From: Candidatus Poribacteria bacterium
GTDB taxonomy: Bacteria; Poribacteria; WGA-4E; WGA-3G
NCBI GenBank assembly: GCA_021295715.1
Contig: JAGWBV010000013.1
Location: 1 to 44,465 of the forward strand
Direction of reading: 5' to 3'
Length of the DNA: 44,465 nucleotides
In this document: positions 1,282 through 24,680 of the stretch, in pieces
Layout of the letters: each line of letters begins with the position of its first letter
How positions within the stretch are numbered: position 1 is the first letter of the stretch
Made by a program: the position numbers and the translations under genes
The notes under the pieces: model-generated
Database searches by the model: none
The model's input: the letters and a program-made list of their open reading frames with translations, nothing else
What the model was told of the DNA's origin: nothing

Positions 1282-2031
1282 TTATCCGATTTTGATTATA
1301 TCCGGTTCGGCTTGAGTTTTGTTATCGCGTAGACTCGGGAGGTTGTACCCGCGGTGTGTGAGTTCGAAAAATAGGGTTTCGTCTGGCGTGTTTTTCAGCG
1401 AGTTATACGTTTTCTGACTTCTGTAAGACTCACCATCGAGCGTGATCGCTTCCACCGCAGCACGCGCATCGGCATAGTTGACACCCAAATAGGATTGCGT
1501 CGTCGCGACGTTGCGATGTCCGAGTAACTCCTTCACCAGATAGATGTCCCCGCTGTGTTCGTAAACCCGCTGTGCAAACGACTTCCGAAGGCTGTGCGTT
1601 GCGATCTTGCCGTTCAAGCCTGCCGCGATAAACGCCTTTTTCAACATCTGGTGAGCAGATTGCCGGTGTAAAGGCACACTCCCCGAATTGTGGCGAGACG
1701 GGAACAGCGGACGATCGGATTCAGTGTTTTTATACCGCTCACGATGCCAAGCGATAATCGCATCAATTGCGGCTCTGCCATCGGCGTTCACTGGAACGGC
1801 TCTCGATACCTCACCACCTTTGACGATGTTCTTCTCAAAAAGGAGGTCGCTGACCGCAGAGCCATTCTGCCATACATCTCCGATCCGAAGCGATAGCAAC
1901 TCACTGATACGCCCGCCAGTCGAAACGCCTAACAGGAAAAGCCCGCGGTTGCGGACTTCAAACGTGTTTCCGGTAAAGCAAGCAGAAACAAGTCGTATTT
2001 CGTCGTTATCAAGCGGTCTTGTGCCTTTCAT
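1282..2031 (-). CDS. Compact tyrosine recombinase (Xer/phage-integrase type)
   Basis: A 249-residue site-specific recombinase of the tyrosine family, which cuts and rejoins DNA through a covalent 3'-phosphotyrosine. The catalytic set is visible: Arg41 in TGGRISELL, Lys71 in the beta-hairpin (IVKGGE), His146-x-x-Arg149 in HSLRKSFAQ, His172 in LLGHRNVATTQSYL, and Tyr181. The catalytic domain fills residues 1 to about 195. The usual N-terminal SAM-like core-binding domain is absent, so this is a catalytic-domain-only form, shorter than XerC/XerD (about 300). About 50 residues without recognised features follow the catalytic domain. It sits between the toxin-antitoxin pair and the rep gene, where it could resolve multimers or integrate the element. 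Its start codon is the end of a leader repeated at 11850. Confidence 0.9.
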   Translation of the reverse strand: MKGTRPLDNDEIRLVSACFTGNTFEVRNRGLFLLGVSTGGRISELLSLRIGDVWQNGSAVSDLLFEKNIVKGGEVSRAVPVNADGRAAIDAIIAWHRERYKNTESDRPLFPSRHNSGSVPLHRQSAHQMLKKAFIAAGLNGKIATHSLRKSFAQRVYEHSGDIYLVKELLGHRNVATTQSYLGVNYADARAAVEAITLDGESYRSQKTYNSLKNTPDETLFFELTHRGYNLPSLRDNKTQAEPDIIKIG

Positions 2032-2077
2032 TTTTTAATTGTTCCTTGCGGGTCAGTAAAGCCAGTTTGAACTTTGG
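2029..2077 (-). repeat. Leader repeat ending at the recombinase start codon (copy 1)
   Basis: This roughly 49-base segment matches 11850-11898 with about six mismatches. In both places, read on the minus strand, it carries the Shine-Dalgarno-like AAGGAA and ends exactly at the start codon of a gene (the recombinase here, the flavoprotein there). The two proteins are unrelated, so the similarity is in the leader only. Confidence 0.7.
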
Positions 2078-2081
2078 TATC

Positions 2082-3389
2082 CTATTCACCTAAAATTCGT
2101 GCCTTTTCGTCTTCATAGGCTTCGTAGACGGGGGCGAGCACCTCGGCACAGAAGTCTTCAGCAAGAATGCCTTTCAGGATACCGGCAATCATGCCTCCGG
2201 CTTGATACGCGGCTTGGACAGACGCATAGTCGTCAAGCCGTCGGCGTGCGAAGGCTGGCAGGTGGGGTGCGGCTTTTTCGAGAAGTTCTGGGGTCTGACG
2301 GACGGCTTGCTGGATCAACACCGCCACTTTCTCATCGCGTTCGGACTTGAGCGTGTTGAGAAGTGCTTGTTGTTCGCGGGCTTTCTCTGCTTGGCGGCGT
2401 GCCTCGGCTTCGGGGTCGATATAGTGTGCGCGGATGGCTTCGACGATAAACCCGCCTCGGTTTTTAACATCTCTGGCATGGTGTGAGAGCTGAATTTTTT
2501 CAACAACGTAGGTATCAAAGTCGGGGTATGTGCCGGGGGGTGGCACCTTTTCGGGCACAACGAACCCCCAGTCCCGTTCGGCGATGTGGACTGCCATGTT
2601 CCGATCAACGCCAGCTTGGACGAGTTCCAAGGCAACCCGTGGTAAATCTTGTATGTCGGGGTAGAGGGACTCTTGGATCGGTTCGGCCCCTGTTATTCGT
2701 TTGGGTTTAGAGATTCTGAACTTCAGTTCGCCGACCTTGCGTCCAATGCGTTTGAGTTCAACCTCAACGTGATAGTCTGTGAGTTTATTGATTTCCTGGA
2801 TGGCGGGTTTGATGACCCATTGGTTCAGAGATTTGAAGGCGGGATATTCATCAGGTGCCATCCCTATGAGGTCCCTGAACTTATCGAGCAGGATGAAGGG
2901 GGTTTCACCTCGATTTCGGCTCATATCAAAGTAATCAAAACAGACTTCCCACAAAATCAAGGCGTATTGGCTCCTAAACTTATTTTGGAGACGGAGGTTC
3001 AACTTGGCGTAGATGCGGGGGTTGTAGAGTTTATAGCGAAGTTCGGGGGCAAAACTATAGGTACAGATACCGTCCCGTATCTTTGCGTTCGCCAAGAGGC
3101 TAGCAACGCCCCATTCCACTTCCTTGTCTTTCTCCAAAATGTTCCATTTCACTGTGCAATCGACGAGTGCTTCTAATACCTCTTTGAGGTACGCAAGGTT
3201 TCCGCTATTAAAATCAAGTTTTGCGGCGAGTTCAACCATACTCACACTATGGATGTCCGTGTGTGGAAGTTCATCGTAAGCATTTGCGAGCAGCACATTC
3301 CATGTCCGGTGCTGCAAAAGCATCATCTTGCTCTGGATTTGGATGGCCGGACTTGCCTTGATAAATTCTTTGCGTTCCATCAAGTCCAC
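2082..3389 (-). CDS. Rep_3-type plasmid replication initiator
   Basis: A 435-residue initiator of the RepB/Rep_3 type, which binds iterons and opens the origin. Residues 1 to about 230 carry two winged-helix-like modules, with features such as KMMLLQHRTWNVLLANAYDEL near the start, SVSMVELAAKLDF, and RSQYALILWEVCFDYF with a following ..DLIGMAPDEYPAFKSLNQWVIKPAIQEIN block that is very typical of the family. The C-terminal 200 residues are a helical tail shared with the partial copy at 2-595. The frame is open to 3560, but GTG at 3389 is chosen because AAAGGAG lies seven bases upstream; an ATG nine bases further in is badly spaced. The 170 bases upstream hold an inverted half-iteron, and full iterons lie at 3605-3647. 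It is either on a plasmid or a chromosomally integrated replicon. Confidence 0.88.
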   Translation of the reverse strand: MDLMERKEFIKASPAIQIQSKMMLLQHRTWNVLLANAYDELPHTDIHSVSMVELAAKLDFNSGNLAYLKEVLEALVDCTVKWNILEKDKEVEWGVASLLANAKIRDGICTYSFAPELRYKLYNPRIYAKLNLRLQNKFRSQYALILWEVCFDYFDMSRNRGETPFILLDKFRDLIGMAPDEYPAFKSLNQWVIKPAIQEINKLTDYHVEVELKRIGRKVGELKFRISKPKRITGAEPIQESLYPDIQDLPRVALELVQAGVDRNMAVHIAERDWGFVVPEKVPPPGTYPDFDTYVVEKIQLSHHARDVKNRGGFIVEAIRAHYIDPEAEARRQAEKAREQQALLNTLKSERDEKVAVLIQQAVRQTPELLEKAAPHLPAFARRRLDDYASVQAAYQAGGMIAGILKGILAEDFCAEVLAPVYEAYEDEKARILGE

Positions 3390-3422
3390 TCGTGTTCTCC
3401 TTTCTGGGTCGTTGTCTAAAGG

Positions 3423-3435
3423 TGTAGGTTTATGG
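3423..3435. promoter_or_regulatory. Inverted half-iteron in the rep leader (possible operator)
   Basis: TGTAGGTTTATGG matches the reverse complement of the last 13 bases of the iterons (TATAGGTTTATGG) at 12 of 13 positions. It lies 34-46 bases upstream of the rep start codon. In iteron plasmids inverted iteron halves at the rep promoter are commonly used for autorepression by Rep dimers; the role here is inferred. Confidence 0.5.
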
Positions 3436-3604
3436 GAAAAAAGGCGCGCGTTTTTGGGAATACCAATCAATATTCGGCTGTCCGAGAAACAAAAGCACAG
3501 AAAAATCAGGAATTCTGTCGCGGTTTTTGAGTTTTTTGCACTATTTTTCCATAAAATCAAATTTTATTATAATAAAATTTTCTTTTAATAACAAAAACCG
3601 ATAC

Positions 3605-14119: not shown

Positions 14120-14233
14120 CATAGTGTTCATCGCTTATTCCAAAGGTGTATTGAAGGCAGAACTTATGAAGCATCAATGCGTTCTTATCTTTAACCAAAG
14201 CACGTAGCCTGTAATGAAATGGAGGGTGGATTT

Positions 14234-15319
14234 ATGGAAAGTACGCCAAATTTGAGACCCACGTTGGGTAACCGCAAGGAAAAATTAAAGTTCATTCAAA
14301 TCGGACTCGTTGGGTGTGGGTGGGCAGGTTGTCGAGCTATCGAAGCTGCTAATGCGACCTCTCGACTGAATGTTATCGCTATCGCGGACCGTGATCCAAC
14401 CCGTCGCGAACAAGCAGGTAATGACAACGCCGTGCCACATCGCTATGCTGACTATCGTGAACTCCTTGACAATCCCGACGTTGAAGCCGTCTATCTCGCG
14501 ACTTCTCCTGATGGTAGGCTGCAGCAAGTTCTGGATACACTCAGTGCTGGTAAACACGTCTTAGTGCAAAAACCGCACGCAATCCGCGCCCCCGAAATAT
14601 TAGAGATGGAGATGGCAGCACAACACGCAGGGAAAACACTGCAATTCTGCTACTTTATGCGCCACTTCCCGAACAACCGAAAGATTCGGCGCGCTGTGCT
14701 GAACGGGACGATCGGAGACTTGTATCACGCTCGCGTCTTCGGGAAATATAACTTCATACCACAGTTCGATGCCAACAGTCGATGGCTACACGTTTACGGA
14801 CAGAAAGGCGGTTCGTTAGGGCAACACTATTCGCACGAACTCAATCTCACGTGGTGGTGGATGGGATGCCCGAAACCGATGTGGGCGTTTGCTGCGAAGC
14901 ACGTGCTGTATCCGCAATATGATGGACCGGAGGGAGCGGCAGAGGACTATTTCACCGGCATCCTCGGATGCGAAGGCGGAAAAACCATCCAGATCGATTG
15001 TTCTCGGATGAGCCACTCCGACTCCGCCAGTGTCGTTGAACTTTACGGGACCACCGGTGCAATCACAAACGGCGGCATATCCCGATTTAAAGATGGCGAA
15101 TTCGTTCGAGAAACTGTTGATGAACCGCTTGACATCGATCACGGTGAACTCCCTGAAGAGGTCCACGTCTTCTACTATGAACTCAACCACTTCGCCATGG
15201 CGATAGCAGGCGAAGTCGCACCAGATGTCTCAGCACCCGATGCGTACACCTTTATGCAAATCTTGGATGCGTTTTACGACAGTGCGAAAAGTGGCGAGAA
15301 AGTTTATATCGTCTCTTAA
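14234..15319 (+). CDS. Gfo/Idh/MocA-family oxidoreductase
   Basis: A 361-residue NAD(P)-dependent dehydrogenase of the glucose-fructose oxidoreductase/inositol dehydrogenase family. Rossmann motif IGLVGCGWAG (GxGxxG at residues 27-32), ADRDPTR at the end of strand 2, and VLVQKPHA with the conserved catalytic-type lysine; a C-terminal alpha/beta domain follows (RWLHVYGQKGGSLGQHYSHELN). Such enzymes oxidise sugars, inositols or sugar acids. A first ATG at 14219 exists, but the sequence GGAGG right after it is better read as the ribosome-binding site for ATG at 14234, eight bases further on. It is distant in sequence from the four tandem paralogues at 20304-24680, so it is not part of that array. 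The defence-type operon points towards its 3' end. Confidence 0.88.
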   Translation: MESTPNLRPTLGNRKEKLKFIQIGLVGCGWAGCRAIEAANATSRLNVIAIADRDPTRREQAGNDNAVPHRYADYRELLDNPDVEAVYLATSPDGRLQQVLDTLSAGKHVLVQKPHAIRAPEILEMEMAAQHAGKTLQFCYFMRHFPNNRKIRRAVLNGTIGDLYHARVFGKYNFIPQFDANSRWLHVYGQKGGSLGQHYSHELNLTWWWMGCPKPMWAFAAKHVLYPQYDGPEGAAEDYFTGILGCEGGKTIQIDCSRMSHSDSASVVELYGTTGAITNGGISRFKDGEFVRETVDEPLDIDHGELPEEVHVFYYELNHFAMAIAGEVAPDVSAPDAYTFMQILDAFYDSAKSGEKVYIVS

Positions 15320-15345
15320 CAGCAATTACGGAAATCGGGGAATCA

Positions 15346-16155
15346 TCAAACTGGGAGGACACCACTATGCTGGAGTTTTCTGCGAATTAGCCTATAGCAC
15401 TCATCTACAAAACTTACTGTTTCTTTAAATACGCTGTTGCAAAAGGCCGTTAGTTCGGTATTCCCACGAGGGACATTGGCGGGAAAAAATTCAGGATTGA
15501 AATGTAACTTGAAACTTGAGCCCTCCAAGGGACCTGAGAGGTCAAAAATAGTCGGAAAATCCACCAGATCGTTTATGTGATCATGTGTTAATTGATTCCT
15601 AATTTGCTTCGCAACATTGAAAGAGAAACCTATTTGGTCCGAATTGCCACTCCGGCTCACCAGATGAAAATTGCGTAAATATCGAGTCAGAAAGCCATTT
15701 GGTATTTTGTTTCCTAACGCCTGACGTATTTTTGAACCGTCACGATCATTTTTAAGCAGACCATAAACGATGTTAATGACTTTTGCGACACAATCGTCGG
15801 AACCAACGATATTAGAAAAGAAACCATGCAGAAGAATAAAAACAACCAACGGAAAAGTGTCAGGGCTCAACAGGTTAATTTGAACATGGAGGTTGTTATC
15901 CGAAAAATCAATTAACGGTTTCTGCTCTGTGGATCGAGAAAATCTGCTCATAATATAGGGAGTATAGTCCATACTCGCCATCAGATCCAGATAAAATCTT
16001 GCAGCGTTGAGTCGTTGATGGGTTGTTGGAATCAACTTTTGAATTTTGGTTTCGGCATCTTGAGCGGTTAAACCTACCGAGTCTTGGATTTTTCCATTTG
16101 TAGCAAGTTCCTCAATTTTTTGAAGGAGACTGGCTTCGTGCGTTAAATTTACCAT
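15346..16155 (-). CDS. HEPN-motif protein, partner of the STAND nuclease
   Basis: A 269-residue protein whose start codon overlaps the end of the STAND gene by seven bases (ATGGTAA), so the two are translationally coupled. I do not recognise the whole protein, but residues 182-191 read AKQIRNQLTH: Arg186-Asn-Gln-Leu-Thr-His191 fits the R-x4-6-H motif of HEPN ribonucleases and toxins, in a helical context (FSFNVAKQIRNQLTHDHINDL). The rest is mostly alpha-helical with a conserved-looking hydrophobic stretch LVVFILLHGFFSNIV near residues 103-117. HEPN proteins commonly act in toxin-antitoxin and abortive-infection systems by cutting RNA. The most likely job is a second effector or regulator of the STAND protein. 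Alternatively it could be a non-catalytic helical adaptor. Confidence 0.65.
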   Translation of the reverse strand: MVNLTHEASLLQKIEELATNGKIQDSVGLTAQDAETKIQKLIPTTHQRLNAARFYLDLMASMDYTPYIMSRFSRSTEQKPLIDFSDNNLHVQINLLSPDTFPLVVFILLHGFFSNIVGSDDCVAKVINIVYGLLKNDRDGSKIRQALGNKIPNGFLTRYLRNFHLVSRSGNSDQIGFSFNVAKQIRNQLTHDHINDLVDFPTIFDLSGPLEGSSFKLHFNPEFFPANVPRGNTELTAFCNSVFKETVSFVDECYRLIRRKLQHSGVLPV

Positions 16156-19100
16156 TCTTCCCCTTCAAGAAATTCTTCATCTTCTTGTGCTAACCACTCA
16201 ATTTCCCGTTGGGTCATATCTATAAGCCCTTCAGCAAACTGTTTAACAATCGGTGAATCCGTTCTGTCGCGCCACGCCTTGAGGTCGTTGATGCGTTTCA
16301 CAAGATGTGGTGCTGGTTCGCCGAGATTTCTCGTGGAGACCCCCGAGGAGAGTGCAGTAGTGATTTCACCTCTTACTTGTTCATCTTCGTTACTCTTTAT
16401 GAGAGCCAACTTCGCGAGAGAATAAAAGACCATATCTGCGTCGAATCCTCTCATCAGATAAGTAGCTTCCCTTATTAGTTCTAGGTCTCCTGAGTCCATC
16501 CATTCCTCAAAGAGTTTCCGCATTGCCGGATTAATTTTGACTTTGCTGCTACGCGGATCATCTCCACCGACCATAGATGTAAGCAATCTGGGTGCCTCAA
16601 ATCTCAGCAGATTTGAGGACGTAAGGACCCAATCTCTTACGCGTTTCAAAGCTGCCAGTGCATTTTGATCACTCCAATCCACACCCTCAAACAGATAGTG
16701 TGGGCGATGCGGAACAGCATCATACTTAAACGATTCAGTATTATACTCGAACTTTTCAGAGCGATTAGATGCCGCCACTTTATAAGCAATTCGCTTCTCA
16801 AAAAATTTGATAACCCAGATCGGATCGTTCTTGAAGATGGCGTGGAGTGCTTGTTCAGCACCATAATCAATGTGTTCTAAATGCACACAATTAAACATTA
16901 CCTGCTTGTATTTTTTCAGGTGTTCTTGTGGTGAGAACTTGAATTCTTGGTGGGTGAGCGCGTGGACGACCTGCCTCATAACCATAGGTGATTCATCGCT
17001 TGATAGTTTCACCAAAATCTCAAGGACAGTGTTTGCATCAACAGCATAGAAATTCGGAAGACTTTTGGTTATATCCCCCCGCAAGAGTTCATCTGGCGTT
17101 TTAGACAATTGATCTAAAATAGACAGATCTTCTTTTCCAACGCATCCGTCTGTTTTAATTCTCGATAGATAACTCCTTGCAACAATGCGTTTACCAAAGA
17201 TGGTGTCCCGATTCAAGAGACTGTGAGTTGCCTCACTCGCTTTACCTTTGTCGACGTGGCGAATACCGCTGAGCAGTCCAGAGGCACAATGCGATTTTTC
17301 TGTCTGCCACTCAACAATGGAGTCCAGTAGATCAGAACCATAGGTAGGGTCGAGTTCACCGATGGACAGAAGCAGCGATGTCGCAGTTCCCGGATCCCAC
17401 CCTTTTTCTGCCCAGATGCTGTCTCTGGAACTGCGGTGCTCCTTTCCTTTTTCGGCAATCTGTATACATTCCTGCATTAATTTTGAGAGTTGTGCGGGTG
17501 TGTATTTCTGAATATATTTTCTCAAGAACGCTTGGTTTTTTTCACGACTTTCACTCAGATCCCAGTCAGGGAATTTTCCAGTAAATTGGCGATAGAAGCA
17601 GTACCTTTCGTAATTTTCATGTTCGTGGAATTTCGCACGTAATTCCGCTGCCCGTTCTTTTGGAAATTCATTCACATATCTGTTTTCTGCATATCCCCGG
17701 AGACACTGATCCATTGCATTAAGAACAGTAAAATCGGACTCTTCTGAGATCCGATTCGCTAATATGTTGAAGAGTCGCTCTTGTTCTTCTTGTAATAGAT
17801 CCTGGTCATTTTTTGACATTTCTCGCCGAGATGTGATTTCCAAAGGATTTATCGCTCGATTAATAGAATCTATTGCCTCTACTCTAATGGTACTATGTTG
17901 AGATATTCTCAGGCAATGCTCGATTAGGTCGATCGCCTTCGCTCTGAGTTGACTCAATTCAGGTGTATAATTTAAATGGCACCAACCAAACTTCAAAGAA
18001 CTGCCTTCACTGAAAGTTTCACTGAAGTCCAGCACGAGAAGCGAATCAAGCGCGTTGAGTAGTGCCAAACTTAGCTTCGGGTTATCTTCTGTTTCCCACA
18101 CCTCAAACACTCCAAGTGCTTTCGTTTGGAATACACTGGGTTTGCTCGTTTGGAAGCCTGTCATCCTTTTTAATAACTCTTGCGGTGAGTCATAATTGGG
18201 AACCTCCAAATCATCCATCAGAAGGAGCTTTTGGACTACCTCCAGCGTTTTCATAAACCCAGATAGTGTATTGACTGTTTTCTGCGCTTCTTTGGCAATT
18301 TTCCTTACCACGTCTTGATGGGTCCGTGTGGAGGTCCACCCGGTATAATGCTTTACATAGTCTTTCTTAGGATTATCCAAGATAATATTGAAAATTTGAG
18401 TCGCATCATCCGGACGAAAGTAACTGATACCTTTCATCTGGTCAAGGATATCCTCTCGAACAGCATTATCACCTTCCTGTGCTCGAATTTTAAGAGAAGC
18501 GACATGCTCATCAAGGAGACTTTTTTCACCAGTTATATTTTCCACGCGAGCAAGATTGATCACTACTTTGATGGGAAGAAGAGGCAAAAAATCATCCAAC
18601 AGACTTTTGTGGAAAGAAGACGGTCTCCCATCGGAGAGAAAACACGCTTTCCGTAAGATATAATCACTGAGCACATCGGGAAAGACACGCTGTTTTCGCC
18701 CAAACTGAAGAAGCAAGCCGTATGCTCGCAGATCATCACGGTATTGCTCTATCTCATAAGGCTCCACTTTTAAGATTTCAGCCAATTTATCGCGTATTCG
18801 GTTGTCTTCTGTGTCAATGGATGCAATCCCGCTAAGCCAGTCCAGCAATTTTCGGTGCCGCTTGTCGGATCTTGGCAGATGTTTGCTGAAGATATCATTA
18901 AGATAGGATTCAAACGTAAGTTCAATCAATTCGTCTTTTGTTAAGTTTCTCAGCTCGACTCCCATATTGAGTAGATCTATCACCATGACAGCAATTAATG
19001 GCGTATCCCGTCCAATCCGTGTTAATCCAGCCAAGAGGGATCCGTCGGGTATCTGCGCGTAAGTGCGGATAAATTCCTTGGTTTTCTCCAATGAAAGTTT

Positions 19101-20069
19101 CGTTATTTTGAGATCTTCAATGGCACCATCTGGTAAGGCAGCCAAGAAATTGCCCTTCAGAGTGGCTTTAAACGGCTCCCGTGTTATGAGAACGACTTTT
19201 GATTCGCTGTATTCAGAACTATTCATTACTATTCTGATACCACCGAGGTTATCAAGAAAATCGTGAGCATCATCTACAAAAAAGATGTACTTACGATTGG
19301 GCGGAATGTCCGCTAAGGCACTTTCAAAACTGTCCGCAGCCATTTGAACAAAGAGAGGCTCATAATCTATGTGCTCTTGTTCGACTGTCTTTGCAAACTC
19401 AATAGCGATCTTGGTTTTTCCAATGCCGCCGCTACCGTATACCATGAATAGTCTTTTCTCTGGATCTTGAACAAAGGTTTGGAATTGACTAATTTCATCC
19501 TCTCGTCCGAAAGTTTCATAGTCGTATCTTAACAGTTGATGTTTACCTGCAATTTGACTTCGGAACATGTCCTGCCAAGAAAGAAACACAGGTAGATGGG
19601 GATCTCGAAATGAATTTAAGAGGTATGAAAACTCATCGGTCATCGTGATGAGGTCTTCTGCATCCCAACAGATTAACGAAAAGGTGTATCCTTTCTCGTT
19701 TTTAATGTCCTCAATTTTACGCTTGTTACCAGCAGTAAGCAAAGTACTGGTCATGAGGACATAGTGATCACACTGCAACGCATCGGCTTTGTCAAGTTCG
19801 CCTTTTTTGTATTTGCTACCTTTCATTTGGGAAATGAGTTGGTTACGGGCACGCCCCTTATCCATCGTTGGGTCAAAGAATTTATACTGGAAGATCCAGG
19901 TACCATCTTTTTCCTTATAATGCCCAGTATAATCCGCGTCAATGCCACCATCGCGTCCCGGCGCGTCGTAGACTTTTACGAAGGAGGACACTTCCTTTTT
20001 CAGGAACAGGTTGCAGAATCGATCAAAGTCTGCTTTTGTTTTTATGTAGTCTGATAACACTTTTTTCAT
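16149..20069 (-). CDS. PD-(D/E)xK nuclease-STAND NTPase-repeat protein (Avs-like defence candidate)
   Basis: A 1306-residue protein in three parts. Residues 1 to about 155 resemble Mrr-like restriction nucleases: GRDGGID (39-44, candidate catalytic Asp44) and WIFQYKF (Gln61-x-Lys63). Residues about 185-480 are a STAND-type NTPase: FGREDEI entry, Walker A GSGGIGKT (212-219), Walker B YIFFVDDAHD (261-270), VVLITR sensor (292-297) and a winged-helix-like region after it. Residues about 480-1306 are helical repeats, probably the ligand-sensing part. The layout nuclease-STAND-repeats is that of Avs antiphage proteins, in which phage protein binding triggers oligomerisation and nuclease activation. 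A frame start at 20114 exists, but ATG at 20069 is chosen because AAGGGGGAA lies just upstream and the domain begins there. It is followed by the HEPN-motif gene. Confidence 0.8.
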   Translation of the reverse strand: MKKVLSDYIKTKADFDRFCNLFLKKEVSSFVKVYDAPGRDGGIDADYTGHYKEKDGTWIFQYKFFDPTMDKGRARNQLISQMKGSKYKKGELDKADALQCDHYVLMTSTLLTAGNKRKIEDIKNEKGYTFSLICWDAEDLITMTDEFSYLLNSFRDPHLPVFLSWQDMFRSQIAGKHQLLRYDYETFGREDEISQFQTFVQDPEKRLFMVYGSGGIGKTKIAIEFAKTVEQEHIDYEPLFVQMAADSFESALADIPPNRKYIFFVDDAHDFLDNLGGIRIVMNSSEYSESKVVLITREPFKATLKGNFLAALPDGAIEDLKITKLSLEKTKEFIRTYAQIPDGSLLAGLTRIGRDTPLIAVMVIDLLNMGVELRNLTKDELIELTFESYLNDIFSKHLPRSDKRHRKLLDWLSGIASIDTEDNRIRDKLAEILKVEPYEIEQYRDDLRAYGLLLQFGRKQRVFPDVLSDYILRKACFLSDGRPSSFHKSLLDDFLPLLPIKVVINLARVENITGEKSLLDEHVASLKIRAQEGDNAVREDILDQMKGISYFRPDDATQIFNIILDNPKKDYVKHYTGWTSTRTHQDVVRKIAKEAQKTVNTLSGFMKTLEVVQKLLLMDDLEVPNYDSPQELLKRMTGFQTSKPSVFQTKALGVFEVWETEDNPKLSLALLNALDSLLVLDFSETFSEGSSLKFGWCHLNYTPELSQLRAKAIDLIEHCLRISQHSTIRVEAIDSINRAINPLEITSRREMSKNDQDLLQEEQERLFNILANRISEESDFTVLNAMDQCLRGYAENRYVNEFPKERAAELRAKFHEHENYERYCFYRQFTGKFPDWDLSESREKNQAFLRKYIQKYTPAQLSKLMQECIQIAEKGKEHRSSRDSIWAEKGWDPGTATSLLLSIGELDPTYGSDLLDSIVEWQTEKSHCASGLLSGIRHVDKGKASEATHSLLNRDTIFGKRIVARSYLSRIKTDGCVGKEDLSILDQLSKTPDELLRGDITKSLPNFYAVDANTVLEILVKLSSDESPMVMRQVVHALTHQEFKFSPQEHLKKYKQVMFNCVHLEHIDYGAEQALHAIFKNDPIWVIKFFEKRIAYKVAASNRSEKFEYNTESFKYDAVPHRPHYLFEGVDWSDQNALAALKRVRDWVLTSSNLLRFEAPRLLTSMVGGDDPRSSKVKINPAMRKLFEEWMDSGDLELIREATYLMRGFDADMVFYSLAKLALIKSNEDEQVRGEITTALSSGVSTRNLGEPAPHLVKRINDLKAWRDRTDSPIVKQFAEGLIDMTQREIEWLAQEDEEFLEGEEW

Positions 20070-20164
20070 TGGAGTTCCCCCTTGATAGCGGCAGAAGGTT
20101 GAACAGCGGGACAAGTATGTTTTCTCAAAATCATTTTAGTACACCAACAATGCTTGATAGCAAT

Positions 20165-20193
20165 ATGTTAGCATATTTTATTGCAGAGGTCAA
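20165..20193 (-). promoter_or_regulatory. Possible promoter of the STAND-HEPN operon
   Basis: On the minus strand: -35 TTGACC (20188-20193), 17-base spacer, -10 TAACAT (20165-20170; four of six consensus bases). It would start transcripts about 90 bases before the STAND ATG. The divergent first oxidoreductase of the array starts at 20304. Confidence 0.4.
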
Positions 20194-20303
20194 ATTGTTT
20201 TCGCTGATGAGGTTCAAGAATTTAATAACATTTGACAAAAACGCACCCCTCTGATAATCTATGGCAAAACTGATGATAGATACCACTAATAGGGAACACT
20301 CCG

Positions 20304-21347
20304 ATGTATAAAACAGCGATGTTAGGGTGCGGGGGGCGTGCCCGTGGGCACGCAGATGCGTATCGTTTCGTCAAACGCGGGAAACTCGCCGCAATCTGCG
20401 ATATGGACGCAGAACGACTTAACAATTTTGGGGAGGAATTCGGTATCTCTTCACGCTACACTGACTTCGACGAGATGCTTGAAAAAGAGAAGCCCGATGT
20501 CCTCCACATCGTCACAAGCCCCGTGGTTCCAAATGGCAGCGAACGGATCCGGTATCCGTTGATGAAACAGGCATCCGACCACGGTGTTCCTGCGGCGATT
20601 ATTGAGAAGCCCGTTGCTGTTGAAGGCGAGGATTGGAAACAGATTGCGGGATTAGCGGAAGAGACACAAACGAAATTTGTCGTCAATACACAACTCGACT
20701 TCCACCCGAAAAACTTGGAATTGAAACGGGATGTCGCGGAAGGACGTATCGGCGAAATTAAGTTTATTGACGCGAGCGCACGTAGTAGAACTGCCGAGCA
20801 AGGAGGACATGTACTACAGTTAGTGTCCTCATACATTGACAACTCCCGCCCCGTCCGTGTTCTCGGACAAGTCGCTGGAAGCGAGGATTTAGATTCTACC
20901 GCTGGGCATCCGTCTCCGACACATGCTGTCGGGCATGCTCTGTATGAGAACGGTGTCCACGTCTCTCTTGCATTTGGAACAGGGATGGCACAAAAGGTGT
21001 CCGACGATTCGGGTATCTACGGGCACAAACGTGTTTTTGTTGCTGGGACGAAAGGCTTTGTGCATTGGCGGTTCAGCAGTTGGGAACGCTCAACGTTGGA
21101 GGGTGGTTATGAGGGCGGTCCGCTTAACTATGGAGAACAAGATGTTGTTGCGCAGGGTAACTTCACCGAAGCCATTTTTGATTGGTTAGCCGATGAGAAC
21201 AGTGTGCATCCGACGCATCTCAAGCAATCGCTCGCTGAGTCTAACCTTATCTTAGGGATGTACTACAGCGGGATAACAAACGAGATTATCGAACTCCCGT
21301 TTGAACCGCCCGATGGACTCATGGACATGCTTCAAGAAAAGTTGTAA
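20304..21347 (+). CDS. Gfo/Idh/MocA-family oxidoreductase, array copy 1
   Basis: A 347-residue dehydrogenase, first of four tandem paralogues. The Rossmann start is MYKTAMLGCGGRARGHADAY, with G8-C-G10-G-R-A13 in place of the strict GxGxxG, then AICDMDAERL at the end of strand 2 and EKPVAVEGEDWKQ with the conserved lysine. The second domain contains NTQLDFHPKNLELKRDVAEG, RIGEIKFIDASARS, HVLQLVSSYIDNSRPVRVLGQVAG and FVHWRFSSWERST. The HVLQLVS His and the invariant surrounding block probably line the substrate pocket. The substrate is unknown, presumably a sugar, inositol or derivative. This copy differs most from the others (SRTAEQGGH in place of STPVDQAPH). It starts a run with short gaps (109, 43 and 61 bases) that is likely one operon. 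Confidence 0.88.
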   Translation: MYKTAMLGCGGRARGHADAYRFVKRGKLAAICDMDAERLNNFGEEFGISSRYTDFDEMLEKEKPDVLHIVTSPVVPNGSERIRYPLMKQASDHGVPAAIIEKPVAVEGEDWKQIAGLAEETQTKFVVNTQLDFHPKNLELKRDVAEGRIGEIKFIDASARSRTAEQGGHVLQLVSSYIDNSRPVRVLGQVAGSEDLDSTAGHPSPTHAVGHALYENGVHVSLAFGTGMAQKVSDDSGIYGHKRVFVAGTKGFVHWRFSSWERSTLEGGYEGGPLNYGEQDVVAQGNFTEAIFDWLADENSVHPTHLKQSLAESNLILGMYYSGITNEIIELPFEPPDGLMDMLQEKL

Positions 21348-21456
21348 TTTTGAAATAAATTTGTACTGGATGGGTCGAAGTTTCCGTGCTTTGTCCCGCC
21401 TTATGTTTTGGTGCGCTGCTGGCGTGCCATCGTTAAATATTAGAGGAGACAACCTC

Positions 21457-22494
21457 ATGTATAAAACTGCGTTCTTAGGGTGCGGCGGTCGTGCCCGTGC
21501 GCACGCGAGTGCTTACCGCTACGTCAAACGCGGCAAAATCGCCGCGATTTGTGATATGAACACAGAGTTGCTCAACAATTTTGGAGACGACTTCGGTGTC
21601 TCTTCACGCTACACCGACCTTGACGAAATGCTTGAAAAAGAGAAACCCGATGTTCTCCACATTGTTACGGCACCGGTGTTACGGGGCACCAGCGAACGGA
21701 TCCGGTATCCACTGATGAAACAAGCCTCGGATGCCAGGGTGCCAGCAGCGATCGTTGAGAAACCGATTGCCGTTGAAAGCGAGGATTGGAAACAGATCGC
21801 AGGTTTGGCAGAAGAGACAGAAACCAAATTCGTCGTCAATACACAACTCAACTTCCATCCACAAAACCTCGAATTAAAAGCGGATGTCTCGGCAGGTCGT
21901 ATTGGTGAAATTAAATTTATTGATGCCAGCGCACGCAGCACGCCGGTCGACCAAGCACCCCACGTGCTTCAGTTGGTATCCTCATATATCGACAATTCGC
22001 GCCCCGTCCGCGTCCTTGGACAGATCGCAGGGAAAGAGCAGTTAGATTCGGCACAACCTTCTCCGATGCATGCCGCTGGCCACGTTTTGTATGAAAACGG
22101 GTTGCATGTCTCTGTTGCGTTTGGCACGGGTATGGGCACATTAGCGTCCGACAGTGAGAGCACTGTCGCACACAAACGGGTCTTCGTCGTAGGAACGAAA
22201 GGATTTGTGCATTGGCGGTTCAGCAGTTGGGAACGCGCAACACCGGAAGGTGGTTATGAAGGCGGTCCACTCAACTACGGAGAACAGGACATCGCCGCAC
22301 AAGGGAACCTCACCGAAGCCGTTTTCGACTGGCTTGCTGATGAGAATAAGGTGCATCCGACGCATCTCCAGCAATCCCTTGCGGAATTCAATCTGCTTCT
22401 GGGTATTTACTATAGCGGAATAACAAACGAAATTATCGATCTACCTTTTGAACCCCCCGACGGATTAATGGATTCCCTCCGGGAAAAATTGTAA
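21457..22494 (+). CDS. Gfo/Idh/MocA-family oxidoreductase, array copy 2
   Basis: A 345-residue paralogue. The frame is open from 21301, but the ATG at 21457 matches the start of the other copies (MYKTAFLGCGGRARAHASAY) and has AGAGGAGA just upstream. Same domains as copy 1: Rossmann dinucleotide site, EKPIAVESEDWKQ lysine motif, NTQLNFHPQNLELKADV, SARSTPVDQAPHVLQLVSS and HWRFSSWERATPEGGYEGGPLNYGEQD. The STPVDQAPH block is shared with copy 3, and nearly so with copy 4 (STPVDQGPH); copy 1 lacks it. The NAD-binding domain is distinct (RYVKRGKIAAICDMNTELL). The variable segment lies around residues 205-245 (GKEQLDSAQPSPMHAAGHV; MGTLASDSESTVAHK), the likely substrate- or interface-tuning region. 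Confidence 0.88.
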   Translation: MYKTAFLGCGGRARAHASAYRYVKRGKIAAICDMNTELLNNFGDDFGVSSRYTDLDEMLEKEKPDVLHIVTAPVLRGTSERIRYPLMKQASDARVPAAIVEKPIAVESEDWKQIAGLAEETETKFVVNTQLNFHPQNLELKADVSAGRIGEIKFIDASARSTPVDQAPHVLQLVSSYIDNSRPVRVLGQIAGKEQLDSAQPSPMHAAGHVLYENGLHVSVAFGTGMGTLASDSESTVAHKRVFVVGTKGFVHWRFSSWERATPEGGYEGGPLNYGEQDIAAQGNLTEAVFDWLADENKVHPTHLQQSLAEFNLLLGIYYSGITNEIIDLPFEPPDGLMDSLREKL

Positions 22495-22537
22495 ACCCAC
22501 TCCGAATTCAGACGGAATCTTTAGAGGAGACCTTTCC

Positions 22538-23581
22538 ATGTATAAAACTGCAATGTTAGGCTGCGGCGGTCGTGCCCGTGCGCATGCAGATGCCTATCGC
22601 TTCGTCAAAAACGGCAAACTCGCCGCAATCTGTGATATGAACACAGAGTTGCTCAACAGTTTCGGTGAGGATTTCGGTATCCCTTCACGCTACACCGACC
22701 TCGATGAGATGCTTGCAAAAGAGAAACCCGATGTCCTCCATATCGTCACGGCACCGGTGTTACGGGGCACCAATCAACGGATTCGGTACTCGCTGATGAA
22801 ACAAGCCTCGGATGCCGGGGTGCCAGCGGCGATCGTCGAAAAACCGATTGCTGTCGAAAGCGAGGATTGGAAGCAGCTTGCAGGCTTAGCAGAGGAGACA
22901 GAAACCAAATTCGTCGTTAACACACAACTTAACTTCCATCCGAAAAACTTGGAGTTGAAACGGGATGTCGCAGAAGGTAGAATCGGCGACATCAAATTCA
23001 TTGATGCCAGCGCACGCAGCACGCCGGTCGACCAAGCACCGCATGTATTGCAACTCGTCTCTTCCTATATCGACAATTCGCGTCCGGTGCGGGTACTCGG
23101 ACAGGTTTCTGGTGCTCAGGATTTAGACTCTACTCAGCCTTCACCTATGCACGCTGCTGCTCAGGCACTCTATGCAAACGGTCTTCACGTCTCTCTCGCA
23201 TTCGGGACAGGTGTAGGGCAGAAAGTGCCGAAAGAGCCGGATGCGGGGAATCACACCCACAAACGGGTCTTTGTCGTCGGCACGAAAGGCTTCGTGCATT
23301 GGAGATTTAGCAGTTGGGAACGCGCAACACCAGCCGGTGGTTACGAAAGCGGTCCATTGGAGTACGGGGAACAGGATGTCGTCGCACAGGGTAACCTCAC
23401 CGAAGCCGTTTTTGATTGGCTCGATGATGAGAACAATGTGCATCCGACGCATCTCAAGCAATCCCTTGCAGAGTTCAACCTACTTTTGGGAATTTACTAC
23501 AGCGGGGTAACGAACCAGATTATTGACCTCCCGTTTGAACCGCCCGATGGGTTGATTGATATACTCCGAGAGAAACTATAA
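22538..23581 (+). CDS. Gfo/Idh/MocA-family oxidoreductase, array copy 3
   Basis: A 347-residue paralogue, 43 bases after copy 2, with AGAGGAGA before the ATG. The first 40 residues are identical to copy 4 (MYKTAMLGCGGRARAHADAY, RFVKNGKLAAICDMNTELL), while the middle block STPVDQAPHVLQLVSSYID matches copy 2. This patchwork suggests gene conversion within the array. The variable segment (SGAQDLDSTQPSPMHAAAQ; VGQKVPKEPDAGNHTHK) is longest here. All dinucleotide and lysine motifs are present (EKPIAVESEDWKQ), so it is expected to be active. Confidence 0.88.
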   Translation: MYKTAMLGCGGRARAHADAYRFVKNGKLAAICDMNTELLNSFGEDFGIPSRYTDLDEMLAKEKPDVLHIVTAPVLRGTNQRIRYSLMKQASDAGVPAAIVEKPIAVESEDWKQLAGLAEETETKFVVNTQLNFHPKNLELKRDVAEGRIGDIKFIDASARSTPVDQAPHVLQLVSSYIDNSRPVRVLGQVSGAQDLDSTQPSPMHAAAQALYANGLHVSLAFGTGVGQKVPKEPDAGNHTHKRVFVVGTKGFVHWRFSSWERATPAGGYESGPLEYGEQDVVAQGNLTEAVFDWLDDENNVHPTHLKQSLAEFNLLLGIYYSGVTNQIIDLPFEPPDGLIDILREKL

Positions 23582-23642
23582 TCAGATGATTAAAATTTCA
23601 TTTATCTTGAGTTGACTTTAGAATATTAAAGGAGACATTTTT

Positions 23643-24680
23643 GTGTATAAAACCGCAATGTTAGGGTGTGGTGGCCGTGCGCGCGCACACGCAGATGCCT
23701 ATCGCTTCGTCAAAAACGGCAAACTCGCCGCAATCTGTGATATGAACACAGAGTTACTCAACAAATTCGGGGATGACTTCGGCATATCATCTCGTTACAC
23801 CGACTTGGACGAGATGCTCGAAAAAGAGAAGCCCGATGTCCTTCATATCGTCACTGCGCCAGTGCTACGGGGTAGCAACGAGCGTATCCGCTATCCGTTG
23901 ATGAAACAAGCCTCGGATGCTGGGGTACCAGCGGCGATCATCGAAAAACCGATTGCCGTCGAAAGCGAGGACTGGAAGCAAATTTCGGGGCTTTCCAAAG
24001 AAACGAAAACGAAATTCGTTGTCAACACGCAACTCAACTTCCATCCACAAAATCTGGAATTAAAGCGGGATGTTTCAGATGGTCGCATCGGCGATATCAA
24101 GCTCATTGATGCGAGTGCAAGGAGCACCCCTGTCGATCAGGGGCCGCATGTGCTGCAGTTGGTATCTTCCTATATCGATAACTCCCGTCCGGTGCGAGTT
24201 CTCGGACAAATCTCCGGTGCCGAACACTTAGATTCAGCGCAACCCTCTCCGCAATATGCGAGTGCGCGTGTCCAGTACGAGAACGGACTTCATGTCTCCG
24301 TTGCGTTCGGGACTGCCATCGCACCGACTGCCTCCGACGATCCGGTTGTCTTTTTCCACAAACGCGTCTTTGTCGTTGGAACAAAAGGTTTCGTGCATTG
24401 GCGGTTTAGCAGTTGGGAACGCTCAACTCCAGAAAATGGTTATGAAGGGGGTCCACTTAGCTACGGAGAACAGGATGTCGTCGCACAGGGCAATCTTACA
24501 GAGGCAGTCTTTGATTGGCTCGACGACGAGAGCAAGGTGCATCCGACCCATCTTGAGCAATCCCTTGCAGAGTTCAATCTGCTTTTGGGAATTTACTACA
24601 GTGGTATCACGAACGAAGTGATTGAGCTTCCCTTCGATCCACCGGATGGGCTCATGGATAAACTGAGAGCCAAACTATAA
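23643..24680 (+). CDS. Gfo/Idh/MocA-family oxidoreductase, array copy 4
   Basis: A 345-residue paralogue starting at GTG (23643), with AAAGGAG upstream; the other three start with ATG. All family motifs are kept (LGCGGRARAHADAY, EKPIAVESEDWKQ, NTQLNFHPQNLELKRDV, STPVDQGPHVLQLVSS, HWRFSSWERSTPENGYEGG). The variable part is ISGAEHLDSAQPSPQYASAR and IAPTASDDPVVFFHK. It is followed after 94 bases by the first LamG gene, with a hairpin (24727-24747) in between that may separate the transcripts or merely be a dispersed repeat. Confidence 0.88.
   Translation: MYKTAMLGCGGRARAHADAYRFVKNGKLAAICDMNTELLNKFGDDFGISSRYTDLDEMLEKEKPDVLHIVTAPVLRGSNERIRYPLMKQASDAGVPAAIIEKPIAVESEDWKQISGLSKETKTKFVVNTQLNFHPQNLELKRDVSDGRIGDIKLIDASARSTPVDQGPHVLQLVSSYIDNSRPVRVLGQISGAEHLDSAQPSPQYASARVQYENGLHVSVAFGTAIAPTASDDPVVFFHKRVFVVGTKGFVHWRFSSWERSTPENGYEGGPLSYGEQDVVAQGNLTEAVFDWLDDESKVHPTHLEQSLAEFNLLLGIYYSGITNEVIELPFDPPDGLMDKLRAKL

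Follow-up and report, generated by a model that had tools for sequence, protein, structure and literature searches.

A nuclease-STAND gene coupled to a HEPN-like gene in Poribacteria: a candidate two-effector defence cassette

To our knowledge, each Avs-type sensor described so far has a single kind of output. A gene pair in a Candidatus Poribacteria assembly raises the question of whether a sensor of this kind might command two, as it joins a predicted DNA-cutting STAND protein to a putative HEPN ribonuclease encoded by an overlapping gene. Poribacteria are a sponge-associated phylum, and we are aware of little work on their defence genes. The window referred to below is the whole stretch of DNA that was analysed, 44,465 nucleotides representing contig 13 of genome G000.

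Gene layout and architecture of the large protein

The large gene (16149–20069, minus strand, read from an ATG) encodes a 1306-aa protein composed of an Mrr-like nuclease domain, a STAND NTPase and HEAT-type repeats; an alternative in-frame TTG start would extend it to 1321 aa. The small gene (15346–16155, minus strand) is an open reading frame for a 269-aa HEPN-like protein, recognised by HEPN profile matches. A check of the reading frames found both where the first-pass annotation had put them, on the minus strand and overlapping by exactly seven bases (ATGGTAA, 16149–16155, minus strand), and the same junction is present in most Poribacteria loci. The 3' end of the large gene (codons EFLEGEEW) holds a GA-rich ribosome-binding stretch together with the start codon of the small gene. 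Retention of this junction in most relatives fits translational coupling of the two genes, and it would also explain the conserved C-terminus EFLEGEEW of the large protein. A consensus scan picked up a promoter-like site (TTGACC-17-TAACAT with TG before the second hexamer, 20165–20193, minus strand) about 96 bp upstream of the large gene, in a scan whose number of hits was not above that of shuffled sequences; a similar sequence was found in most other occupied loci.

The motifs named by the first-pass annotation (GRDGGID, WIFQYKF, GSGGIGKT and YIFFVDDAHD in the large protein, R186-N-Q-L-T-H191 in the small one) were all recovered in the translations. They represent more than chance resemblance, since the aligned homologues show no variation at R186 and H191, at D40, G42, D44, Q61 and K63, or in the Walker A residues. 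The PD-(D/E)xK active-site stretch D44...Q61-x-K63 spans 19881–19940 (minus strand), and within the GRDGGID motif, which also occurs as GPDRGID, GPDGGSD and GRDKGID, full conservation is limited to D40, G42 and D44. When the N-terminal domain was searched in isolation, the sole Pfam family matched was Mrr_cat, in 2 of 10 members (best E 0.0017), and one plasmid relative gave an Mrr_cat match with E 3.8e-6. The domain thereby displays both features of an Mrr-like PD-(D/E)xK enzyme, the D...(E/Q)xK active site and an Mrr profile match.

The STAND signature is complete. Walker A (GSGGIGKT, residues 212–219, 19413–19436, minus strand) is invariant among the aligned relatives, and the STAND-type Walker B (YIFFVDDAHD, residues 261–270, 19260–19289, minus strand) has D266, A268, H269 and D270 invariant. 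Together with ITR (295–297) and RDTPL (354–358), also conserved across the aligned relatives, these motifs provide the Walker A, the hhhhDD Walker B, the downstream sensor arginine and the conserved P of the class. Pfam assigned AAA_16 to residues 187–248 (E 1.4e-6), nSTAND3 (E 0.0011) and HEAT_2 to residues 984–1039 (E 3.8e-5, just short of the cut-off), all three matches being below the Pfam gathering score. The helical HEAT-type region to which the latter match belongs, presumably the sensor, extends over approximately 16200–18422 (minus strand), and residues 1201–1300 are the least conserved part of the protein. The PADLOC candidate PDC-S73 matched residues 13–267, i.e. nuclease plus NTPase, with E 1.1e-10. 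An AlphaFold model of the nuclease and STAND part reached a pLDDT of 40, too poor for a fold search. Because the profile matches coincide with conserved catalytic and STAND motifs, the large protein is most simply read as a complete STAND ATPase bearing an active Mrr-like PD-(D/E)xK domain, and the nuclease–STAND–repeat architecture proposed earlier is thus supported by Pfam, PADLOC and the conserved motifs.

The small protein as a probable HEPN ribonuclease

The motif R186-N-Q-L-T-H191 lies at 15583–15600 (minus strand). All 16 sequences compared, one of them at only 31% identity, have R186 and H191, and the residue following R is either N or H. Active HEPN RNases carry a conserved Rx4-6H in which a polar residue follows R (PMC3710099), and the Rx4H of the small protein, with its N or H, agrees with this pattern. 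In Pfam searches of the small-protein family, HEPN_Cthe2314 was matched by 4 of 9 members and HEPN_Apea by 2 of 9; the matches were weak, and all HEPN matches of the small protein were below the gathering score (27.1 bits is the curated cut-off for HEPN_Cthe2314). The best-supported one came from the distant homologue in genome G002 (E 4.2e-4, 20.8 bits, positions 51–171 of 174). When 83 genomes of the phylum were searched with the PF18730 profile, a single match emerged at E<=0.001, namely the small gene of this distant pair.

An AlphaFold model built from nine sequences was mostly helical with a mean pLDDT of 67. In this model the motif sits at the end of helix 178–188 and the start of the next loop, and an invariant acidic residue, D121, is located in the long helix preceding the motif helix; both the position of the motif and the placement of D121 appear as expected for HEPN. 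A Foldseek search of the same model against PDB returned no HEPN match, only helical bundles with E>=0.15, and we counted this result neither for nor against the assignment. The poor structure match and profile scores under the cut-offs leave some room for RNxLxH being a structural helix motif of a protein that is not HEPN and has another role. We consider this quite unlikely, as the few Pfam families matched repeatedly include two different HEPN families, the distant member reaches E 4.2e-4, and the motif is placed at a helix end with an invariant acidic residue in the preceding long helix. The conserved Rx4H accordingly bears out the claim of a HEPN-type motif, as does the match to the HEPN_Cthe2314 profile, which is weak but specific, and the small protein is likely, though not proven, to be a HEPN protein.

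Conservation, exchange and genomic site of the pair

In ten related loci from named Poribacteria assemblies the large protein is 63–85% identical, and the small gene is coupled to it in every one of the ten. Across the phylum the distribution is patchy: full-length large genes, 17 in total, occur in 16 of 85 genomes, G079 having two, and all 17 are directly followed by the small gene or its decayed remains. A distant lineage, G002, has a pair with 44% (large) and 31% (small) identity that is split over contig ends. The two genes are hence kept together in all full-length loci and in the distant pair, a point that the first-pass annotation had asked to be examined; far from always lacking the small gene, the homologues of the large gene all have it or its remains. 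The two copies in G079 (contigs 24 and 32, L062 and L074) are complete loci with both flanks, so that this assembly either contains an extensive duplication or is a mixed bin.

The tight overlap and constant co-occurrence of the genes might also be those of a toxin–antitoxin-like pair, either a HEPN toxin with a large regulator or a nuclease with the small protein as its antidote. HEPN toxins are common in toxin–antitoxin pairs. Two genomes speak against such an arrangement: G059 has an in-frame TAG in the small gene, and an internal deletion in the small gene of G043 removes the HEPN motif, yet the large gene is open in both (an assembly error is possible in either case). The small protein is therefore no required antidote, and we rejected that role for it. 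No orphan small gene, i.e. one without the large gene, was found among the 85 genomes of the phylum, but this is equally expected for an effector, and we know of no antitoxin type resembling a 1306-aa nuclease–STAND–repeat protein. Altogether, a toxin–antitoxin-like pair seems improbable. The same two genomes indicate that the HEPN protein can be dispensed with in some cases.

Purifying selection acts on both genes (dN/dS about 0.15–0.3 for almost every pair), and the small protein evolves faster than its large partner. Synonymous divergence differs strikingly between the genes: 0.39 for the large and 1.15 for the small gene between G000 and G077, and 0.21 and 0.06, respectively, between G077 and G083. 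Four-fold sites along the large gene form near-identical blocks beside highly diverged ones, and the trees of the two genes disagree. These three observations show that alleles have been exchanged by recombination, the small gene in part independently of the large one. Fast evolution and separate exchange are what a recognition or regulatory subunit might show, and some lineages lose the small protein and keep the nuclease. The pair could thus be a defence system whose small protein has the HEPN fold but serves as a non-catalytic or regulatory subunit (an adaptor, an inhibitor of premature oligomerisation or a specificity factor) and only the Mrr nuclease kills. R186 and H191 persist even at 31% identity, and R is followed by a polar residue (N or H) as in active HEPN RNases (PMC3710099). 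This argues against the possibility, which we regard as rather unlikely but the one to be taken most seriously beside a catalytic role.

The pair lies between two genes for Gfo/Idh/MocA dehydrogenases (14219–15319 and 20304–21347). The inserted cassette extends over approximately 15325–20250, as judged by a shift in GC content and by genomes without the cassette, in which the flanks are adjacent. The same two flanks surround the cassette in 12 genomes from three genera (in G055 the site spans two contigs and was inferred). In at least 30 relatives without the cassette at this position, the left flank adjoins the right flank gene or its close paralogue; the flanks of these empty sites are 64–280 bp apart, mostly 64–130 bp, and the promoter-like sequence of the right gene is preserved. 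The GC content of the cassette is 0.42–0.45 compared to about 0.50 in the flanks, and no integrase gene was seen inside the inserted segment. We infer that the cassette moves by homologous recombination through its conserved flanks.

Three copies lie elsewhere. G038 and G047 have an empty usual site and carry the pair at another position, and in G043 it is on a contig other than that of the left flank. The relocated pair is followed by a type III methyltransferase and a restriction gene in G038 (PADLOC MTase_III 6.6e-169, REase_III 3.1e-156), by a gene sharing its N-terminus with the G038 methyltransferase in G043 (by eye), and by a TIR effector in G047 (PADLOC PDC-S35, 2e-64). The expectation that the pair resides near defence genes consequently holds for these three copies, but not for the usual site, which lies between metabolic genes and in no defence island. 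This usual location, which lies on the upstream side of a dehydrogenase gene with its promoter-like sequence intact, might indicate that the pair regulates the adjacent dehydrogenase genes in symbiosis or housekeeping and has no part in defence. However, most relatives are without the cassette and have their dehydrogenases unchanged, copies elsewhere are beside defence genes, and the nuclease–STAND architecture speaks against it as well, making such a role very improbable.

Some further features of the site were recorded. Tandem Gfo/Idh/MocA dehydrogenase paralogues (about 75–85% identical) beside it, at 20304–24680 of the window, are conserved across the family. An in-frame TGA suspected to interrupt the left flanking gene in some relatives was dismissed, as five genomes showed no internal stop in the aligned part. 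Another long gene is found next to the left flank in G056 and G057 (L078 and L076), the G056 copy having a metalloprotease-like HELGHAFGL, which suggests that the site takes other inserts. In several occupied sites a gene encoding WD40 repeats and a C-terminal Trypsin_2 domain is directly downstream of the small gene (L005 14804–17137; L006 13096–15459, 7 bases from the small gene; and in G076 and G082, L072 and L084). This gene was considered as a third component because nuclease–protease pairs are known (PMC12799240), and was set aside given the apparent signal peptide of its product in G076 and G082 and its presence in some copies only. At the left end of the window (1282–3560) a phage-type integrase gene (1282–2031) is next to one for a Rep3 plasmid-type replication initiator (2082–3560), possibly marking an integrated element.

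Possible mode of action and relation to known systems

The explanation we favour, with about even confidence, is that the pair constitutes a two-gene NLR-like antiviral defence cassette, consisting of a nuclease sensor and a HEPN RNase as second effector. A product of a phage or other intruder would bind the C-terminal HEAT repeats of the large protein, the STAND ATPase would then adopt an ATP-bound, oligomeric state, and the Mrr-like domains clustered at its N-termini would cut DNA, so that the large protein would act as both sensor and first effector. The small protein, presumably made from the same message by translational coupling, would be a Cthe_2314-type HEPN ribonuclease. Once the oligomer had recruited or activated it, it would cleave RNA and so open another way of aborting the infection.

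The case for defence draws on the domain, motif and HEPN evidence, the constant pairing and the patchy distribution, as well as on the empty and occupied versions of one site, the AT-rich cassette, the mosaic alleles and the exchange of the small gene. It is strengthened by the relocated copies beside a type III restriction–modification system and a TIR effector, by plasmid relatives that share the Mrr–STAND–repeat plan, and by the nuclease effectors through which the published Avs1–Avs4 act (PMC12931631). Against it, no match in phage records or viral contigs ties the cassette directly to phage conflict, the usual site is outside a defence island, and the HEPN matches are below the gathering score. 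The low pLDDT of the models (67 for the small protein, with no HEPN match, and 40 for the nuclease–STAND part) also counts against the explanation, and the broken small genes of G059 and G043 beside an intact large gene count against the need for a second effector.

A more far-reaching proposal, which we offer tentatively, is that of a two-polymer sensor: a bound ligand would bring about oligomerisation of the STAND protein, the Mrr-like domains of the oligomer would cut DNA and the oligomer would also switch on a separate, interchangeable HEPN RNase, and the cassette would have no mobile element and would spread among Poribacteria by homologous recombination via the flanking genes at one chromosomal docking site. 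If true, bacterial NLR-like sensors would be able to enlist an additional effector that acts on RNA. In addition, the same site occurs with and without the cassette, which provides a clean natural record of how such a cassette is gained and lost and how its alleles are exchanged. Moreover, the conserved pairing would give the Cthe_2314 HEPN family its first biological context, as no domain or operon association was detected for this family when it was listed in 2013 (PMC3710099). The small protein resembles that family by its Rx4H motif and by the profile match (PF18730) of the distant member, and differs from the family as listed in being tied to a nuclease–STAND gene.

The large protein follows the Avs-type plan of an N-terminal effector, a STAND NTPase and C-terminal repeats. 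Avs4 (AVAST type IV) is composed of an Mrr-like nuclease, STAND and repeats. The resemblance to Avs1–Avs4 thus lies in the nuclease, NTPase and helical repeats being present in one long protein and in the sensor–effector logic, which is presumed for the Poribacteria pair. What sets the cassette apart is its HEAT-like repeats and the constant small HEPN-like partner gene. No Avs or AVAST model was among the PADLOC matches to the large protein at E<=1, and a PDB sequence search gave no match to Avs structures. The available models therefore recognise no membership in Avs1–Avs5, the comparison suggested by the first-pass annotation; we rejected Avs membership and file the cassette as an Avs-like (NLR-like) nuclease sensor, the name being used by analogy. 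PDC-S73, a single-gene candidate by its PADLOC name, resembles the nuclease and STAND part, but its model is 752 aa compared to 1306 aa and only the first third of it was matched.

HEPN domains have been linked to ATPases before, in the Npun_F6454 group, where HEPN is fused to STAND-ATPase/TPR proteins (PMC3710099), and in HEPN-DUF499 ATPases, where a HEPN RNase is joined to an ATPase (PMC12839542). In both, HEPN is within the ATPase protein, whereas here it is a separate gene and the ATPase carries a predicted DNase. The pairing of a sensor containing one effector domain with a separately encoded second enzyme recalls Avs1, Hachiman and Lamassu systems with nuclease–protease pairs, in which a separate MBL nuclease is activated by a fused protease (PMC12799240); the separate enzyme is there an MBL nuclease and here a HEPN-like protein. 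In the open-access literature, to which our search was confined, we found no nuclease–STAND protein paired with a HEPN gene.

Plasmid relatives of the large protein (22–26% identity) were found in cyanobacteria, proteobacteria, haloarchaea and Leptospira. They have a similar STAND–repeat plan and differing N-termini (EAD10, Mrr or HTH-Mrr). The Rhizobium etli and Xanthobacter plasmid proteins, both with Mrr_cat and STAND (and HEAT in Rhizobium), have a homologous NTPase at about 22–25% identity, but differ in that no HEPN-like partner was seen there. No obvious HEPN-like partner was present beside the plasmid relatives inspected, and no relatives of the small protein were found on plasmids. 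Phage records contained no relatives of the large protein, and neither protein was found in viral contigs.

Two plasmid loci have gene neighbours of their own. In Rhizobium etli (L056, 4260–9515) an HTH-Mrr–STAND–HEAT gene is followed 7 bases downstream by a TIR-like gene with a weak match to CAP12-PCTIR (E 0.009), possibly a parallel two-effector arrangement; this single case hints that second effectors may be exchangeable. In Aulosira laxa (L052, 4168–8384) a STAND–repeat relative with a weak N-terminal match to the effector-associated domain EAD10 is preceded by a 147-aa gene with shared GDNN-containing segments.
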